NCBI GenBank assembly: GCA_024742415.1
Contig: JANSYN010000001.1
Span: 310,001 to 374,000, forward strand
Length of the DNA stretch: 64,000 nucleotides
DNA from: Gammaproteobacteria bacterium
GTDB lineage: Bacteria > Pseudomonadota > Gammaproteobacteria > Pseudomonadales > Halieaceae
Reading direction: 5' to 3'
The notes under the pieces are model-generated. The model did no database searches and was not told the origin of the DNA. It saw nothing but the letters and a program-made list of their open reading frames with translations. The position numbers and the translations under genes are program-made. This document shows, in pieces, positions 28,490 to 35,317 of this stretch (position 1 is its first letter; each line of letters starts with the position of its first letter).

Positions 28490-31400
28490 ATGCCCGAGCA
28501 GCAAGAGGGAGCAGGGCGCTCGCTCAACATCAGCTATCCACCTGAACTGCCTGTCGCCGAACGCCGTGACGACATCGCCGCCGCCATCGCCGCGCACCAG
28601 GTCGTGATCGTGGCCGGCGAGACCGGCTCGGGTAAAACCACGCAAATCCCGAAAATATGCCTGGAACTGGGGCGCGGGCAAACCAGGCTCATTGGCCATA
28701 CCCAGCCGCGTCGCCTTGCGGCGCGCACCGTGGCTACGCGAATCGCCCAGGAACTGGGCGTGGAAGTCGGTGGCCTGGTCGGCTACCAGGTACGTTTTGG
28801 TGATCATGTTGGCAACGCAACCGCTGTCAAGCTGATGACGGATGGTATTTTGCTCAACGAGATGCAGCGCGACCGGCTGCTGCGCCACTACGACACGCTC
28901 ATTATCGATGAGGCCCACGAGCGCAGCCTGAACATCGATTTCATCCTCGGATACCTCAAGCGTATTCTTGCGCGACGGCCTGACCTCAAAGTGATTATCA
29001 CTTCGGCTACCATCGATGTTGAGAGTTTCTCGCAACACTTTGATGGCGCGCCGATCATAGAGGTCTCGGGCAGGACATATCCAGTAGACACCCACTACCT
29101 GGGCGCACAGGTCGACGCGGACACAGCCGACGTTGAATCGGAGCTGAGCCGCATCGCCACGCTGGTTGAGCAGATCGAGCGCGGCAAGTTTGGTCCGCGC
29201 GGCGATGTCCTGGTGTTTCTGCCCGGTGAGCGCGAAATCAGGGAGCAGGCCAGGGCCCTGCGTGGGCTCGAGCGCGTTGAAGTGTTGCCCCTGTATGCGC
29301 GCCTGGGCCAGGGCGAGCAGCAGCGTGTGTTCAACAGCGGCAGGGGCGGCGCCGGGCTGCGCGTGGTGCTGGCCACCAATGTGGCCGAGACATCCGTCAC
29401 GGTACCCGGTATTCGCTACGTTATTGATCCGGGTGTCGCTCGCATCAGTCGCTACAGTCACCGCTCCAAGTTGCAGCGCCTGCCGGTCGAGGCGATCTCG
29501 CAGGCCAGCGCGAACCAGCGCAAGGGCCGTTGCGGACGCGTAGGGCCGGGCGTTTGTTTGCGTCTGTACAGCGAAGAGGATTTCAACGCGCGCGCCGAGT
29601 TCACCGAACCGGAGATCCAGCGCACGAACCTGGCTGCTGTCGTACTGCAGATGCTGGCGCTGGGCCTGGGCGAGGTAGAGAAATTTCCGTTTATCGATCC
29701 CCCAGACGGCAGGTTGGTGCGCGACGGCTACAAGGTGCTGGAGGAACTGGGCGCGGTCTCTGCGCAAGGCAAACTCACCGGCCTGGGCAAGCGTTTGGCG
29801 CGCCTGCCGGTGGATCCGCGTCTGGGTCGAATGCTGTTGCAGGCGGGCCGCGAGCATTGCCTTGCCCAGGTGCTGGTGATTGTCAGCGCCCTGAGTGTGC
29901 AGGACCCGCGCGAACGGCCGGCAGATCGCCAGGCACAGGCTGACCAGATGCATGCACGCTTCAGGCACGAGCGCTCGGATTTCATGGCCTGGCTCAAGCT
30001 GTGGGCTTACTACGAGGAGCAGCGCCAGGTACTGACGCAAAGCAAGCTGCGTAAGCTCTGCCAGCGGGAATACCTGTCATTTATCAGGATGCGCGAGTGG
30101 CGTGCAGTGCATAGCCAACTGACGATCGCCTGTCGCCAGCAGCAACTGCGACCCGCTGCGCTGCTTGCGGAAAAAGAAAATTACCGGGGTATACACCGGT
30201 CACTGCTGGGCGGTTTATTATCCAATATTGCCCAGCAACACGAAGGGCGCGAGTATCTTGGTTCTCGCAACCGCAAAATGCAGATCTTTCCGGGCTCCTC
30301 GCAGGCGCGCAAAAAGCCGGCGTGGATCGTGGCTGCTGAAATTGTTGAGACTTCGCGGGTGTTTGCGCGCGAGGTGGCCGCCATCGACCCGCGCTGGGCG
30401 CTGGATCTCAACCCGAATTTACTCAAGCATCATTACTCAGAACCCCGCTGGCGTGCGCGCACCGGCCAGGTCATGGCCAATCATCGTGTCACGCTCTACG
30501 GCTTGACGTTGCTGGACAAGGAGGCGGTTCACTATGGGCCGATAGCGCCTGCCGAGAGTCGGGCCCTGATGATCAGCCAGGGCCTTGTTGCCGGCCAATT
30601 CAATCGCTTTCCCGATTTTCTCAAGCACAACCGCGCGTTGGTGCGTGACCTGGAGGCGCTGGAAGCACGGACCCGCCGTCGCGACATACTGGTAGAGGAT
30701 GCCGTGCTCTTTGCGTTTTATGACGAGCGACTCCCGCAGGAGCTGTACACCGCAAGTGGCCTGCAAAGCTGGCTCAAGAAAAACCGCGCGGCCTCGGCAA
30801 GTCTCACGATGGAGCGCGAGATGCTGATTGCGCGCGATCCCGGTCTTGGGGTGGAAGAGCAATTTCCGCAAACCCTGCAGGTGCAGGATCTGTCATTCAG
30901 GCTCAGCTACGAGTTCGAACATGGCCATGCGGCCGACGGGGTTTCCGTCACGGTGCCCGTTGCTTTGCTCAACCGCGCGCCGCGCTACCTGTTCGACTGG
31001 CTTGTTCCGGGTCTGCTGCGGGAAAAGTGCATCGCATTGGTCAAGGGCTTGCCCAAGGAAAAGCGCAAGCAGCTGGTGCCGGTTCCGGATGTTGTCGAGC
31101 GCGCACTGGCCGTTATGACACCGTCCGACACCGACCTGCTGGTAACTCTGGCAGCCACCCTGGCAGAGCAGGCAGGGGTCCGGCTGAGCCGGGAGGATTT
31201 TGCCGCGGTCGTGCTGGATGACTACTACCGCATGAACGTGCGCGTGGTGGATGAGCGCGGACGCCTGCTGGAGCAGGGGCGAGACCTGGCCGCACTGATC
31301 GAGCGTTACCGTGAAGATACCCGCGTCAGCGTCAGCTTTGGCGATGCGCAGTCTCCGGCACGCGAGGGGCTCACCCGATGGGACTTCGACTCGCTGCCCG

Positions 31401-32248
31401 AACGTTTCCAGTTTCGGCAGGCGGGCATTGATATCCTGTCATGGCCGGCACTTGAAGATAGGGGCGACAGCGTCGCGATAGTTTTGTGTGACTACGCCTC
31501 GCAGGCCGCGTTGACCCATCGCGATGGTGTGCTGCGCCTGGCGCGGTTGAGTTCCATGCAGAAGGTCAAGTATCTGCGCAAGCAGTGTCTGCGCGGTAAT
31601 GAAAGCCAGTTGATCCTTGCGGCGGTAGAGCGTGATCGTACCGCCCTGGTCGATGACCTGATCGATGCAGCCTATGTGCAGGCGCTGGCGCTGGACGCGC
31701 AGCTGCCACGCGAGCAGTCTGCGTTCGAAGCCTGCCTGCAGCGGGCGCAGCCCGCGCTGGTGGAATGTGCGCAGTTACTGGAGCGCAATCTGTTGGTGTC
31801 GTTGCACACCCTGGGGGCAGTGCGCCGTGCGATGCAGCGCTGGGACGCACACAGTTTTGCCGATACGCGCGCGGACATCGCCGAGCAGCTGGCGGCGTTG
31901 CTGGCGCCGGGCTTTATGCGCGATACCCCGGCCTACTGGTTGCAGCAGTTTCCGCGTTACATGAATGCCTTGCAGCACCGCGTGGAACGGCTCACTGGCC
32001 AGTACCCGAAAGACCAGCGCAACCTTGCCCTGCTGGCGCAGGCCCGGGAGCCGCTGGCACAGGTATTGCGCGAGCGTCCGGATGTGCTGCGGCTAAGCGC
32101 AGCGCTGTCAGATTATCGCTGGATGCTGGAAGAGTTTCGTGTGTCGCTGTTTGCGCAAAGCCTGCGCACCGTGAAGCCGGTATCGAGCAAACGCCTGCAG
32201 GAACAGTGGCAAAAGGCCGAGGACTGGCTGTTAAATAACCCTGTTTAA
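28490..32248 (+). CDS. hrpA: ATP-dependent RNA helicase HrpA
   Basis: A 1252-residue DEAH-box helicase, close to the length of E. coli HrpA (1300). Walker A is in VAGETGSGKTTQIP, Walker B in TLIIDEAHERSLN, motif III SATIDVESF, and motif VI QRKGRCGRVGPG. The long C-terminal part carries the helicase-associated, OB and DUF3418 domains found only in HrpA. The enzyme resolves collided or stalled ribosomes on mRNA. Start ATG 28490. The intrinsic terminator just upstream means its promoter overlaps that region. Confidence 0.96.
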   Translation: MPEQQEGAGRSLNISYPPELPVAERRDDIAAAIAAHQVVIVAGETGSGKTTQIPKICLELGRGQTRLIGHTQPRRLAARTVATRIAQELGVEVGGLVGYQVRFGDHVGNATAVKLMTDGILLNEMQRDRLLRHYDTLIIDEAHERSLNIDFILGYLKRILARRPDLKVIITSATIDVESFSQHFDGAPIIEVSGRTYPVDTHYLGAQVDADTADVESELSRIATLVEQIERGKFGPRGDVLVFLPGEREIREQARALRGLERVEVLPLYARLGQGEQQRVFNSGRGGAGLRVVLATNVAETSVTVPGIRYVIDPGVARISRYSHRSKLQRLPVEAISQASANQRKGRCGRVGPGVCLRLYSEEDFNARAEFTEPEIQRTNLAAVVLQMLALGLGEVEKFPFIDPPDGRLVRDGYKVLEELGAVSAQGKLTGLGKRLARLPVDPRLGRMLLQAGREHCLAQVLVIVSALSVQDPRERPADRQAQADQMHARFRHERSDFMAWLKLWAYYEEQRQVLTQSKLRKLCQREYLSFIRMREWRAVHSQLTIACRQQQLRPAALLAEKENYRGIHRSLLGGLLSNIAQQHEGREYLGSRNRKMQIFPGSSQARKKPAWIVAAEIVETSRVFAREVAAIDPRWALDLNPNLLKHHYSEPRWRARTGQVMANHRVTLYGLTLLDKEAVHYGPIAPAESRALMISQGLVAGQFNRFPDFLKHNRALVRDLEALEARTRRRDILVEDAVLFAFYDERLPQELYTASGLQSWLKKNRAASASLTMEREMLIARDPGLGVEEQFPQTLQVQDLSFRLSYEFEHGHAADGVSVTVPVALLNRAPRYLFDWLVPGLLREKCIALVKGLPKEKRKQLVPVPDVVERALAVMTPSDTDLLVTLAATLAEQAGVRLSREDFAAVVLDDYYRMNVRVVDERGRLLEQGRDLAALIERYREDTRVSVSFGDAQSPAREGLTRWDFDSLPERFQFRQAGIDILSWPALEDRGDSVAIVLCDYASQAALTHRDGVLRLARLSSMQKVKYLRKQCLRGNESQLILAAVERDRTALVDDLIDAAYVQALALDAQLPREQSAFEACLQRAQPALVECAQLLERNLLVSLHTLGAVRRAMQRWDAHSFADTRADIAEQLAALLAPGFMRDTPAYWLQQFPRYMNALQHRVERLTGQYPKDQRNLALLAQAREPLAQVLRERPDVLRLSAALSDYRWMLEEFRVSLFAQSLRTVKPVSSKRLQEQWQKAEDWLLNNPV

Positions 32249-32293: not shown

Positions 32294-32323
32294 GAAACTA
32301 ATGGTTTGATGGTATGTCATACC
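32294..32323 (+). promoter_or_regulatory. Candidate promoter and operator of the hvf cassette
   Basis: GAAACTA at 32294-32300 and GTCATA at 32316-32321, with 15 bp between, resemble a Group-IV (ECF) sigma promoter. A perfect 13-bp palindrome, GGTATG-T-CATACC (32311-32323), overlaps the -10 element. Both are visual matches; ECF control of the gene family is known in some bacteria, but no sigma gene lies in this window. Confidence 0.4.
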
Positions 32324-32435: not shown

Positions 32436-32810
32436 ATGGCAAACTTTAAAAAACCTCTAGCAACGGCTCTGGGCGCCGCGTTTCTGGCCAGCGCGGTCGT
32501 ACCTATGGCTTCCGCGGAAGTCAATCCGTTCTCTGCCCAGCAATTGTCAGGAGGGTATGACCTGCCCAACTTCGCCGGCCACAAGGAAGGCGGCTGCGGT
32601 GAAGGCAAGTGTGGTGAAGGCAAATGTGGCGAAGGTGAAGGCCACGGCGCCGATAAAGGCGACGGCGAAGGCAAATGTGGCGAAGGTAAGTGTGGTGAAG
32701 GCGCCGACAAAGGCGACGGCGAAGGTAAGTGCGGCGAAGGCAAATGCGGTGAAGGTGATGCCAAGGCCGACGGCGAAGGCAAATGCGGCGAAGGTAAGTG
32801 CGGTAGCTAG
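32436..32810 (+). CDS. hvfA: EGKCG-repeat RiPP precursor, HvfA/bufferin type
   Basis: A 124-residue precursor with an N-terminal export signal (residues 1-27, ending ASA before EVNPF). The mature part carries eight EGKCG motifs in four adjacent pairs (56-65, 78-87, 96-105, 114-123), separated by Gly/Asp/Lys spacers, and nine cysteines (Cys54 plus one per motif). EGKCG cysteines in this family are converted by the DUF692/DUF2063 pair into oxazolone/thioamide or thiooxazole groups that bind copper. The partner genes follow at 2 and then 3 bp. The DNA repeats behind the motifs vary at third positions, so they look selected. Assignment is strong; the metal is inferred from the family. Confidence 0.88.
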   Translation: MANFKKPLATALGAAFLASAVVPMASAEVNPFSAQQLSGGYDLPNFAGHKEGGCGEGKCGEGKCGEGEGHGADKGDGEGKCGEGKCGEGADKGDGEGKCGEGKCGEGDAKADGEGKCGEGKCGS

Positions 32811-32812
32811 CG

Positions 32813-33664
32813 ATGCCTGAGAACAACCGGGAACTCCACGGAGCGGGACTCGGTTTACGGCGGGCCCTTCTGGGCCCGCTTTTGTCTATGGACGAGACAC
32901 ACGTGGATTTTATGGAAGCGGCGCCAGAAAACTGGATAGGCGTGGGCGGCCGCTACGAGAAGCAATTCATGGCGCTGGCAGAGCGCTACCCGCTGTCATT
33001 TCATGGCCTGTCGCTGGATATTGGCGGGCCGGATGCGCTGGATGTGGACCTGGTGAAGTCGGTCAGGGCGCTTATGGATGCCTGCAGGGTGTCCGTGTAC
33101 AGCGATCACCTGACCTACTGCGCGGCGGACGGCCACCTGTATGATTTGTTGCCGATTCCTTTTACGCAGGAGGCAGTGCGTTACGTGGCTGATCGAGTGC
33201 GACAGGTGCAGGACATTATCGGCGCGCCCATCGCACTTGAGAACGCCTCGTACTACGCGCAGGCGCACACCGAGTTGAGCGAGGCTGAATTTGTCAGCGC
33301 CGTAGTGCATGAAAGCGGCTGTGACCTGCTGCTAGACGTCAACAATATCTACGTCAACAGCATCAACCATCGCTATGACCCGGTGGCATACCTCGACGCA
33401 CTGCCGCTGGAAAAAGTGCGCTATATTCATGTGGCAGGACATTATGATGAAGCGCCCGATCTGAAAGTCGACACGCATGGCACGGCGGTGATTGATCCGG
33501 TGTGGGCACTGTTGACGCAGGCCTATCAGCGCATCGGTTGTGTGCCAACATTGCTGGAGCGTGATTTCAATATTCCGCCGTTGGACAAACTCCTCGAAGA
33601 GGTCAGCATGATTCGCCAGCTACAGGCGCCGTTTGTAGCGCGCAACGCGCAGGCGGCAGGCTAG
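32813..33664 (+). CDS. hvfB: DUF692/MNIO multinuclear iron RiPP-maturation oxidase
   Basis: A 283-residue TIM-barrel MNIO enzyme. Metal-site motifs are all present: SFHGLSLDIGG, YSDHLTY, IALENASYY, LLLDVNNIYVNS, HVAGH, DTHG and LLERDFNIP. With its DUF2063 partner it oxidises cysteines of the EGKCG precursor. ATG 32813 is 2 bp after the hvfA stop; no strong ribosome site is visible, so translation is probably coupled. A terminator-like hairpin sits inside codons 17-24 (see 32860-32883). N-terminal LRRALLGPLL is coded by that hairpin. Confidence 0.92.
   Translation: MPENNRELHGAGLGLRRALLGPLLSMDETHVDFMEAAPENWIGVGGRYEKQFMALAERYPLSFHGLSLDIGGPDALDVDLVKSVRALMDACRVSVYSDHLTYCAADGHLYDLLPIPFTQEAVRYVADRVRQVQDIIGAPIALENASYYAQAHTELSEAEFVSAVVHESGCDLLLDVNNIYVNSINHRYDPVAYLDALPLEKVRYIHVAGHYDEAPDLKVDTHGTAVIDPVWALLTQAYQRIGCVPTLLERDFNIPPLDKLLEEVSMIRQLQAPFVARNAQAAG
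32860..32883 (+). terminator. Intrinsic terminator/attenuator inside the 5' end of hvfB
   Basis: Perfect 8-bp GC stem GCGGGCCC / GGGCCCGC (32860-32867, 32872-32879) with a TTCT loop, followed by TTTT then GTCT. This is the classic terminator shape, 49 nt after the hvfA stop and within the hvfB reading frame. Confidence 0.6.
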
Positions 33665-33667
33665 CAC

Positions 33668-34438
33668 GTGGCGGCCCCCTTGCACGACGTGCAAAAAGCC
33701 ATGGCGCGCTATCTGCGCAACCCTGAACAGGAACCAGCGCCTGAGGGCATAGAACCGCGCCGGCTCAAGATCTATGAAGACCTCGTCTACAACAATATCG
33801 AGGGGTTTTTGACCAGCGGGTTTCCGGTGCTGCACAGCCTGTACTGCGCGCAGGACTGGCAGGCGCTGGTGCGCCGTTTTATGCAGGATCATCGCTGTCA
33901 CTCACCCTATTTCCTTGAAATCAGCCAGGAATTCCTGCAGTTCCTGATGGAAGATCATCAACCCCGTGAGTGTGATCCGCCGTTTCTGACAGCGCTGGCT
34001 CACTACGAATGGGTAGAGTTGGCACTGGAAGTCTCCCAGGAAACGTTGCCCGAATCAGCTGACTTTAGCGTGATTGGCAGCGCGGTCGCGCGACTGTCGC
34101 CGTTGGCGTGGGCGCTGGCATACCAGTTTCCGGTGCATCGCATAGGGCCAGGGTTCAGGCCGCAGACAGCCGGGCAGCCCACGTACCTGCTGGTGTATCG
34201 CGCCGCTGATTTCAGTGTCAAGTTTGTTGAGCTCAATGCACCCACGGCGCGACTGCTGGAACTGCTGCGCGACAATCAGCACAGCACGGTGGATGCGCTC
34301 CTGGCGGTTTTAGCCGGCGAGTTGGGCACCAGCGTCGAGGCGATTGCCGCTTTCGCCCACGAACAACTGTTGCAATGGCTGCGCGATGGCGTGTTGTGGA
34401 TTGCCGCTGACACACAGGCACCGGTCAGTCGTTCGTAA
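33668..34438 (+). CDS. hvfC: DUF2063 partner protein of the MNIO enzyme
   Basis: A 256-residue protein. The N-terminal DUF2063 helical domain has PLHDVQKAMARYLR, RRLKIYEDLVYNNIEGFLTSGFPVLHSL and SPYFLEISQEFLQFL. The C-terminal domain shows TYLLVYRAADFSVKFVELNAPTARLLELL. These proteins bind the precursor and present it to the DUF692 enzyme. Start is GTG 33668, 3 bp after the hvfB stop. The usual DoxX-like fourth gene of such cassettes is absent; an mlaA gene follows. Confidence 0.88.
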   Translation: MAAPLHDVQKAMARYLRNPEQEPAPEGIEPRRLKIYEDLVYNNIEGFLTSGFPVLHSLYCAQDWQALVRRFMQDHRCHSPYFLEISQEFLQFLMEDHQPRECDPPFLTALAHYEWVELALEVSQETLPESADFSVIGSAVARLSPLAWALAYQFPVHRIGPGFRPQTAGQPTYLLVYRAADFSVKFVELNAPTARLLELLRDNQHSTVDALLAVLAGELGTSVEAIAAFAHEQLLQWLRDGVLWIAADTQAPVSRS

Positions 34439-34466: not shown

Positions 34467-34543
34467 AAAAGTAGGGCGGTAGTAGTTGAATGCGCGCAGT
34501 CACGCCAGTAACATGCCTCTTCCCATCGCGTGCGGATCAGACG

Positions 34544-35317
34544 ATGCCAGCGTTACGTCTTTACCTCTTGCTTGTGCTTCTGTTCACATCGGCGTCTGCT
34601 GTGGCCCAGTCTGACGAGGCCTTCGCGTTCGCGTCCGACTCTGGTGCGATTGCAGTGGTCGAGCCGGCTGAGAATCCGGACCCCTGGGAGCCGATGAACC
34701 GCAAGGTCTTCGCGTTCAACGAGGCGCTGGATGCCTATTTTCTGCGCCCGGTTGCTAAGGGCTATCGCTTTGTCACCCCTGACCCTGTTGAGCTGGGTGT
34801 CACCAACTTCATCAGCAACATTTATGAGTTCAATACGATCCTGAATTCCATACTTCAGGGGCGGCCGGGCAATGCGTTTGACAGCCTCGGCAGGCTCACC
34901 ATCAATTCGACCGTTGGGCTGTTGGGTTTTTTTGATGTGGCTTCGGCCATTGGCGTACCGCATGTGCCGGCAGATTTTGGCCAAACCCTGCACACCTGGG
35001 GTGCGGATGCCGGCCCGTTTTTGATGGTGCCGGTGGCGGGGCCACGCACGCTGCGCAGTGGCGCAGGCCTGGTGGTGGACAGCTTTACCGCGCTGCCGTC
35101 GCTCTCGGGTGAGAATCTTTTCAACTGGACTTTCCTGGGAATAGAGGCTGTTGATGTGCGCGCGCAGTTGCTCAAGGCCGATGAGCTGATCTCGGGCGAT
35201 CGGTACATTTTCCTGCGCAACGCCTATCTGCAGCGGCGTGAAACCTTTCTCAATGGCGGCGTTGTCATTGACGATTTCTCGGATTTCGAGGAAGGCGAGG
35301 AGTTTGAAGATTTTTAG
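34544..35317 (+). CDS. mlaA: MlaA (VacJ) phospholipid-transport outer-membrane component
   Basis: A 257-residue MlaA family protein that removes phospholipids from the outer leaflet. Motifs NPDPWEPMNRKVFAFNEALD, NFISNIYEFNTILNSILQG and DFGQTLHTWGADAGPFLMVP are diagnostic. Start at ATG 34544 gives a signal peptide ending SASAVAQ; there is no cysteine or lipobox, whereas E. coli MlaA is a lipoprotein, so it may be released by signal peptidase I. The C-terminus is acidic (DFSDFEEGEEFEDF). Same strand as the hvf genes, 105 bp downstream. Confidence 0.9.
   Translation: MPALRLYLLLVLLFTSASAVAQSDEAFAFASDSGAIAVVEPAENPDPWEPMNRKVFAFNEALDAYFLRPVAKGYRFVTPDPVELGVTNFISNIYEFNTILNSILQGRPGNAFDSLGRLTINSTVGLLGFFDVASAIGVPHVPADFGQTLHTWGADAGPFLMVPVAGPRTLRSGAGLVVDSFTALPSLSGENLFNWTFLGIEAVDVRAQLLKADELISGDRYIFLRNAYLQRRETFLNGGVVIDDFSDFEEGEEFEDF

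Follow-up and report, generated by a model that had tools for sequence, protein, structure and literature searches.

Gene content of the cassette and its precursor

The window, by which we mean the whole stretch of DNA that was analysed (64,000 nucleotides), comes from a Halieaceae bacterium and contains three adjacent genes, hvfA, hvfB and hvfC, flanked by hrpA and mlaA and accompanied by two candidate control elements. The features are as follows.

28490..32248, + strand: hrpA helicase gene (TIGR01967), a conserved upstream neighbour, probably outside the pathway
32294..32321, + strand: predicted ECF-type hvfABC promoter, with GAAACT as the -35 element (32294-32299), a 16-nt spacer and GTCATA as the -10 element (32316-32321)
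32436..32810, + strand: hvfA, encoding an EGKCG captophorin precursor of 124 aa (NF050137, over the cut-off); a signal-like N-terminal segment (signal peptide judged by eye) is followed by NPFSAQQLSGGYDL
32595..32807, + strand: hvfA core, C54 (EGGCG) and four EGKCGEGKCG pairs, placed by motif positions
32813..33664, + strand: hvfB, MNIO (DUF692) maturase (NF003818, 421.8 bits, cut-off 360; PF05114)
32859..32880, + strand: candidate RNA hairpin, hvfB codons 16-23, GGCGGGCCC-TTCT-GGGCCCGCT, with a conserved inner 7-bp stem and pair changes
33668..34438, + strand: hvfC, DUF2063/RRE partner protein (NF050145, 300 bits, cut-off 142; PF09836, PF22106)
34490..35317, + strand: mlaA (PF04333, 232.5 bits), a conserved downstream neighbour, probably outside the pathway; an in-frame ATG at 34544 may be the true start

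The original prediction listed eight EGKCG motifs and nine cysteines, and both counts hold for the 124-residue product of hvfA. The motifs stand at residues 56, 61, 78, 83, 96, 101, 114 and 119, and no shuffled version of the core contained more than two (20,000 shuffles). They fall into four pairs, as predicted, but these are not evenly spaced, since their starts lie 22, 18 and 18 residues apart. The ninth cysteine, C54, is part of EGGCG, 5 residues N-terminal of the first pair, and the first cluster is thus a triple. The precursor scores 67.5 bits against NF050137, the model for repeated EGKCG (cut-off 19.5), but only 51.3 bits against the stricter HvfA equivalog NF050188, for which the cut-off is 95. 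It is therefore assigned to the EGKCG domain family and not to HvfA sensu stricto, and the missed cut-off counts against the overall reading preferred below. A Pfam search of the precursor returned no match, and an AlphaFold model, for which a beta-helix was considered (27 aligned precursors of 80 usable), had a mean pLDDT of 46.3 and no confident fold, a further point against that reading.

The maturase gene begins 2 nt downstream of the hvfA stop codon. The predicted succession of DUF692 (MNIO) and DUF2063 genes directly after the precursor gene is borne out, both exceeding curated cut-offs. HvfB matches PDB 3bww (E 4.1e-80) and HvfC matches PDB 3dee (E 1.3e-12). In the accessible text on FonB, R15 R16 and D249 F250 are named as the residues that contact the substrate and take part in catalysis in Lys-Cys enzymes (PMC13097082); HvfB carries the active-site residues of this group as R16 R17 and D251 F252, assigned by motif position and not by alignment with FonB itself. 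Against the bufferin maturase model NF050167, HvfB scores 274.3 bits, below the cut-off of 310, which places the locus outside BufABC. The genome as a whole has one MNIO match and a single precursor gene of the EGKCG type. With family matches for A, B and C, including the HvfB-family MNIO and the DUF2063/RRE neighbour of the EGKCG class, and with the enzyme signature residues, this is by gene content a captophorin cassette. The NCBIfam matches for all three genes likewise support the earlier view of an HvfABC-type RiPP cassette that is probably copper-binding.

Precursor pairing and the hrpA-mlaA slot

Comparisons were made with 110 loci, the nearest relatives by HvfB (30, the window's own genome among them, plus the best 80), which are not a random sample. 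Removal of 8 duplicates left 102 distinct loci; a precursor was not found at 4 and had fewer than two KCG motifs at 6, and pairing counts rest on the 92 precursors with at least two. Among these sampled nearest relatives, 562 of 661 KCG motifs occur in pairs, 52 of the 92 precursors contain pairs only, and 42 have eight or more EGKCG motifs. Paired EGKCG is moreover the published norm for captophorins (HvfA/oxazolin, fontiphorin, bulbicupramide), to judge from the available portions of the reports: Haemophilus influenzae HvfA has three AEGKCGEGKCG units (PMC13419390), and Microbulbifer precursors have di-Cys cassettes with two modified cysteines in each (PMC12538549). The suggestion that paired motifs are unusual is thus rejected, and the comparison of motif number and pairing that had been proposed as a check finds the paired form to be common in the sampled relatives.

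Other precursor arrangements were also seen. In three loci (L021, L039 and L010) the lysine before the cysteine is mostly replaced (EGSCG) and the motifs are mostly single, with the maturase RR retained; in two others (L057 and L076) EGKCG precursor frames lie 2.4-3.1 kb upstream of the MNIO gene.

The position of the cassette is shared as well. The nearest loci by HvfB are from Halieaceae, among the matches listed, and a common gene order, hrpA-hvfABC-mlaA-response regulator-STAS-dus, is shared by Halieaceae, Microbulbifer, Zhongshania, Dasania and further groups. At 50 of the 102 distinct loci, hrpA is found upstream and mlaA downstream of the cassette (slot loci, below). A copy of mlaA lies at most 3 kb downstream at 60 of the 102 and a DoxX gene within 3 kb at 28, the two occurring together at one locus; since flanks extend only about 1.5 kb at some loci and some contigs end early, these neighbour counts are lower bounds, and the DoxX search used a single 86-aa query. 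The single DoxX match in the window's own genome is on a different contig from the cassette. Eight family members have no HvfB match, and in seven of these mlaA follows hrpA at 174-253 nt (match to match), although the mlaA match of one (G021) contains a stop; in the eighth (G003; 470 contigs, 74% completeness) the search did not turn up a complete HrpA. On an HvfB tree of the 102 genes, inferred by a fast method, 5 changes suffice for the label "beside hrpA and/or mlaA". When both neighbours must have been seen (the strict slot label), 12 changes are required, compared with a mean of 34.4 after shuffling; these 12 changes nonetheless count against the preferred reading. Taken together, the neighbour counts, the cassette-free relatives and the tree point to an old slot that is mostly inherited, with clean presence or absence of the cassette. 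An exception among the family members is L028, which sits on a long tree branch. Its cassette adjoins DoxX, neither hrpA nor mlaA was matched in the short flanks, and the cassette may have been replaced from outside.

MlaA therefore looks like a bystander. It had been supposed to take the place of DoxX, but a gene that directly follows hrpA in seven of eight relatives lacking the cassette is no stand-in for DoxX, and with the slot present at half of the distinct loci that candidate was set aside. The broader reading, in which an atypical paired precursor forms a special two-site metal unit through its even pairing while MlaA does the job of DoxX, is very improbable. The pairs and the mlaA neighbour are truly present at the locus, and FonBC modified a two-repeat substrate and not a one-repeat substrate in the part of PMC13097082 that is accessible. 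Against this, pairs-only precursors make up more than half of the sampled set, pairing is already published, and hrpA and mlaA are adjacent in seven of the eight relatives without the cassette.

A predicted promoter and a candidate hairpin in the maturase gene

The predicted promoter is the sole match to its pattern within the window, where 0.01 would be expected. Upstream regions were scanned at 89 of the 102 loci (three of the 89 outside the four tabulated classes), with gene starts set by rule and some of them wrong. GAAACT-N16-GTC lies upstream of hvfA at 33 of 47 slot loci, 8 of 22 DoxX-type loci and 44 of all 89; with spacers of 12-15 or 17-21 it occurs at 0 or 1 of the 47 slot loci. For the looser AACY-N16-GTC the counts are 37 among the 47 slot loci (1.2 expected) and 9 among the 22 DoxX-type loci (0.7 expected). 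At nine other spacings this core reaches 0 to 5 of the slot loci, the highest being 5 at spacer 12 and 4 each at 17 and 19 (about 1.2 expected; three of the four at 17 are from Microbulbifer), and at most 3 of the 22 DoxX-type loci. Both patterns were chosen after the alignment had been viewed, so that the contrast with other spacings, and not the raw count, is the test. An earlier pattern that demanded C or G before GTC matched 14 of the 47. An AAC-type -35, a GTC-type -10, fixed spacing and conservation are together what would be expected of an ECF-type promoter. Counting against the preferred reading, 14 of the 47 slot loci lack GAAACT-N16-GTC in the scanned stretch, including all four Microbulbifer loci scanned. 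Ahead of the precursor gene, three of these four (L059, L064 and L067) have AACY-N17-GTC instead, which may be a variant whose spacer is one base longer; at another locus (L049) GAAACTT is cut off by the end of the scanned stretch.

The site may be close to operon-specific. All 21 matches to GAAACT-N16-GTCNTA in the best 80 loci are upstream of the cassette on the same strand, with none elsewhere. In 57 genomes GAAACTT-N15-GTCNTA has 20 matches, against 36 for a reversed control pattern, and the 20 comprise 11 hvfA promoters, one contig-edge repeat of the same sequence and 8 others. The own genome has two matches to GAAACT-N16-GTCATA, the hvf promoter and the start of an unrelated open frame, and the wider GRAACTT-N15-GTCNNA gives 3 there, against 5 for its control. 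Outside the hvf operon the element is not above chance, and match locations and control counts together indicate that the signal lies in the position of the site and not in the number of sites.

ECF control as such would not be new. Caulobacter and Sinorhizobium ECF studies reportedly mention DUF692. Homologous operons are under an ECF sigma in H. influenzae and Neisseria meningitidis, according to the accessible parts of PMC7907618 and PMC3240639, respectively. It may be asked whether the site is an ordinary RpoE (sigma-E/AlgU) promoter, which would place the operon in the general envelope stress regulon. The AACY-N16-GTC core and spacing do recur in 22 of 30 rpoE upstream regions (0.7 expected), but the surrounding bases differ: AAC is preceded by A in 35 of 39 hvf sites and by G in all 22 rpoE sites, and GTC is followed by A-T-A in the hvf sites (24, 28 and 37 of 39) and by T-A-T in the rpoE sites (17, 21 and 19 of 22). 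Given these differences, an RpoE promoter seems unlikely, though by no means far-fetched; an ECF sigma other than RpoE is the likelier reader of the predicted ECF-type promoter. In the own genome nine loci matched sigma region 4, a set not confined to ECF sigmas, and at none of them does about 3.1 kb of sequence contain GAAACT-N16-GTC; five own-genome queries for an ECF sigma near the cassettes gave only weak matches, only at three Lysobacter loci (L102, L108 and L110). That these searches found no cognate sigma weighs against the preferred reading.

The second candidate control element is the hairpin in the first codons of hvfB. Of 102 hvfB genes, 53 have a 7-bp stem with a 4-nt loop positioned exactly on the second Arg codon, where synonymous shuffles lead one to expect 1.75, and only 19 other such stems occur anywhere in the scanned sequence (up to 645 nt per gene, 102 genes). 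At the 37 nearest loci, 34 have a hairpin of at least 7 bp in the region, against 9.9 expected. The covariation set comprised 55 sequences: to the 37 nearest were added 18 from other groups, chosen after the hairpins had been seen; four members (L061, L080, L093 and L098) break the hairpin. Both sides have changed in 6 of 9 pairs and 94.5% of cells pair, and none of 500 shuffles reached the observed value on any of five measures. When the hairpin was slid by 1-3 columns, double changes were seen in no more than 5 pairs and 9 cells, and one slid version equals the 11 further pair types. Several results count against the hairpin. RNAalifold recovers the outer four pairs only, the stretch in the window itself has a folding z of -1.94, in 45 of the 102 genes at most 5 of the 7 inner pairs form, and no hairpin was seen in the genes inspected from Microbulbifer, Pseudomonas and Kangiella.

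Conservation of the RRALLGPL peptide in nearest relatives, combined with a very G+C-rich stem, could in principle yield such a hairpin as a mere by-product. The synonymous shuffles fall far short of the observed number, however, and pairs outlast residue changes (for example in L021, L050, L100 and L113), which leaves this explanation improbable. The hairpin probably keeps the precursor message in excess, by termination, processing or stability. It might specifically be an intrinsic terminator acting as an attenuator: TTTG directly follows it in the window, 7 of the 37 nearest genes have a terminator-like hairpin (0.22 expected), and six loci without the hvfB hairpin (L078, L082, L089, L099, L114 and L030) have a terminator-like hairpin in the hvfA-hvfB gap. 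Since 30 of the 37 do not pass as terminators, in most cases because a T-run is lacking, termination to the exclusion of processing or stability is doubtful.

Just upstream of the hairpin lies GGAGCGGGACTCGG (32840-32853). Among the 37 nearest hvfB genes, 14 contain it unchanged and 18 contain it if one base is left free, and it may be part of the same RNA element. A match to the Xanthomonas sRNA family sX14 in Rfam at 32815-32883 (23.3 bits, gathering 80, E 0.21) is attributed to chance, because four Lysobacterales loci, all with the hairpin, yielded nothing for sX14 even with E allowed up to 1. Some 4 kb from one Lysobacter cassette there is a guanidine-II riboswitch (L102:12781-12825, minus strand; 43.4 bits, gathering 32).

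Interpretation and comparison with known systems

The locus is very probably a standard three-gene captophorin (HvfABC/EGKCG) cassette of a Halieaceae bacterium, a reading that takes in its chemistry, slot, promoter and hairpin. The steps of chemistry, export and copper binding are inferred from characterised homologues and from the signal-like start of the precursor. HvfC, as RRE partner, would hold the precursor, while HvfB would carry out a four-electron oxidation that turns each Lys-Cys-Gly cysteine into a 5-thiooxazole. The modified peptide would then pass to the periplasm, where its thiooxazole thiols would bind Cu(I). For homologues, the 5-thiooxazole, a loss of 4 Da per Cys and Cu(I) binding are established, as the available portions of PMC13097082, PMC12538549 and PMC13419390 describe. 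Transcription would most likely begin from the conserved ECF-type promoter, whose -10 element is located 120 nt ahead of the hvfA start, and this promoter makes envelope stress, rather than copper as such, the probable trigger. In the least certain step, the hairpin would probably hold hvfA message above enzyme message.

More tentatively, and with rather less than an even chance of being right, it may be that Halieaceae and some other gammaproteobacteria carry a self-contained, stress-switched cassette, in which a non-RpoE ECF sigma reads the near operon-specific GAAACT-N16-GTCATA and the maturase-codon hairpin sets the precursor-to-enzyme ratio. The Microbulbifer cluster is kept in every genome studied and was not expressed with or without copper, and its authors are hesitant to assign copper protection, according to the accessible text of PMC12538549; both points count against the preferred reading. 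Envelope-stress sigma control would, if true, explain clusters that are conserved yet silent under copper, in Microbulbifer perhaps via a related promoter form. The conserved ECF-type promoter in related genomes points to such a signal, Microbulbifer itself having at most a variant element. A covarying hairpin within coding sequence would be a compact route to much precursor and little enzyme. More than 20,000 captophorins are known, on the count in the available part of PMC13097082; this cassette adds one, and its control elements matter more.

We found no earlier report of an ECF-type hvfA promoter or a hairpin in hvfB codons for such cassettes. Literature searches, which covered main texts outside most subscription journals, found nothing that joins DUF692 with hrpA and mlaA, or MNIO with Halieaceae. 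MNIO and RpoE met only in PMC13097082, where RpoE is in the reference list, and DUF692, DUF2063 and hairpin only in a crystal-structure paper. A promoter, hairpin, terminator or hrpA is nowhere mentioned in the main texts of PMC13097082 and PMC12452194. The main text of PMC12538549 is likewise silent on hairpin, promoter, sigma, hrpA and MlaA, although flanking genes are drawn in its figure 4A.

Bufferins (DUF2282 and 6/12-Cys types) resemble the cassette in their MNIO and DUF2063 partner, signal-bearing precursor and link to copper, but they have another precursor type, and HvfB falls below the bufferin maturase cut-off. Fontiphorin (fonABC of Fontimonas thermophila) is closer, with a minimal A-B-C arrangement without DoxX, EGKCG repeats and a maturase with RR and D-F; it has seven modified sites in the accessible text of PMC13097082, whereas eight EGKCG and one EGGCG are present here. 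Bulbicupramide (mmrABC of Microbulbifer) shares three genes and di-Cys cassettes, as far as the available text of PMC12538549 describes them. Its neighbours are also those found here, with hrpA and mlaA at five loci and mlaA at a sixth with a short flank. None of the six Microbulbifer hvfB genes has the hairpin, however, and GAAACT-N16-GTC, present here, is absent from the four scanned, three of which have AACY-N17-GTC.

Oxazolin (HvfABC of H. influenzae) likewise combines a paired EGKCG precursor, an HvfB MNIO and an HvfC partner. In the accessible descriptions its HvfA has three pairs and is accompanied by a DoxX gene (hvfX), whereas the precursor described here has four pairs and C54, no adjacent DoxX gene and a score below the HvfA equivalog cut-off. 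The oxazolin operon is under an ECF sigma in the available part of PMC7907618, and the Halieaceae cassette has a predicted promoter of the ECF type.
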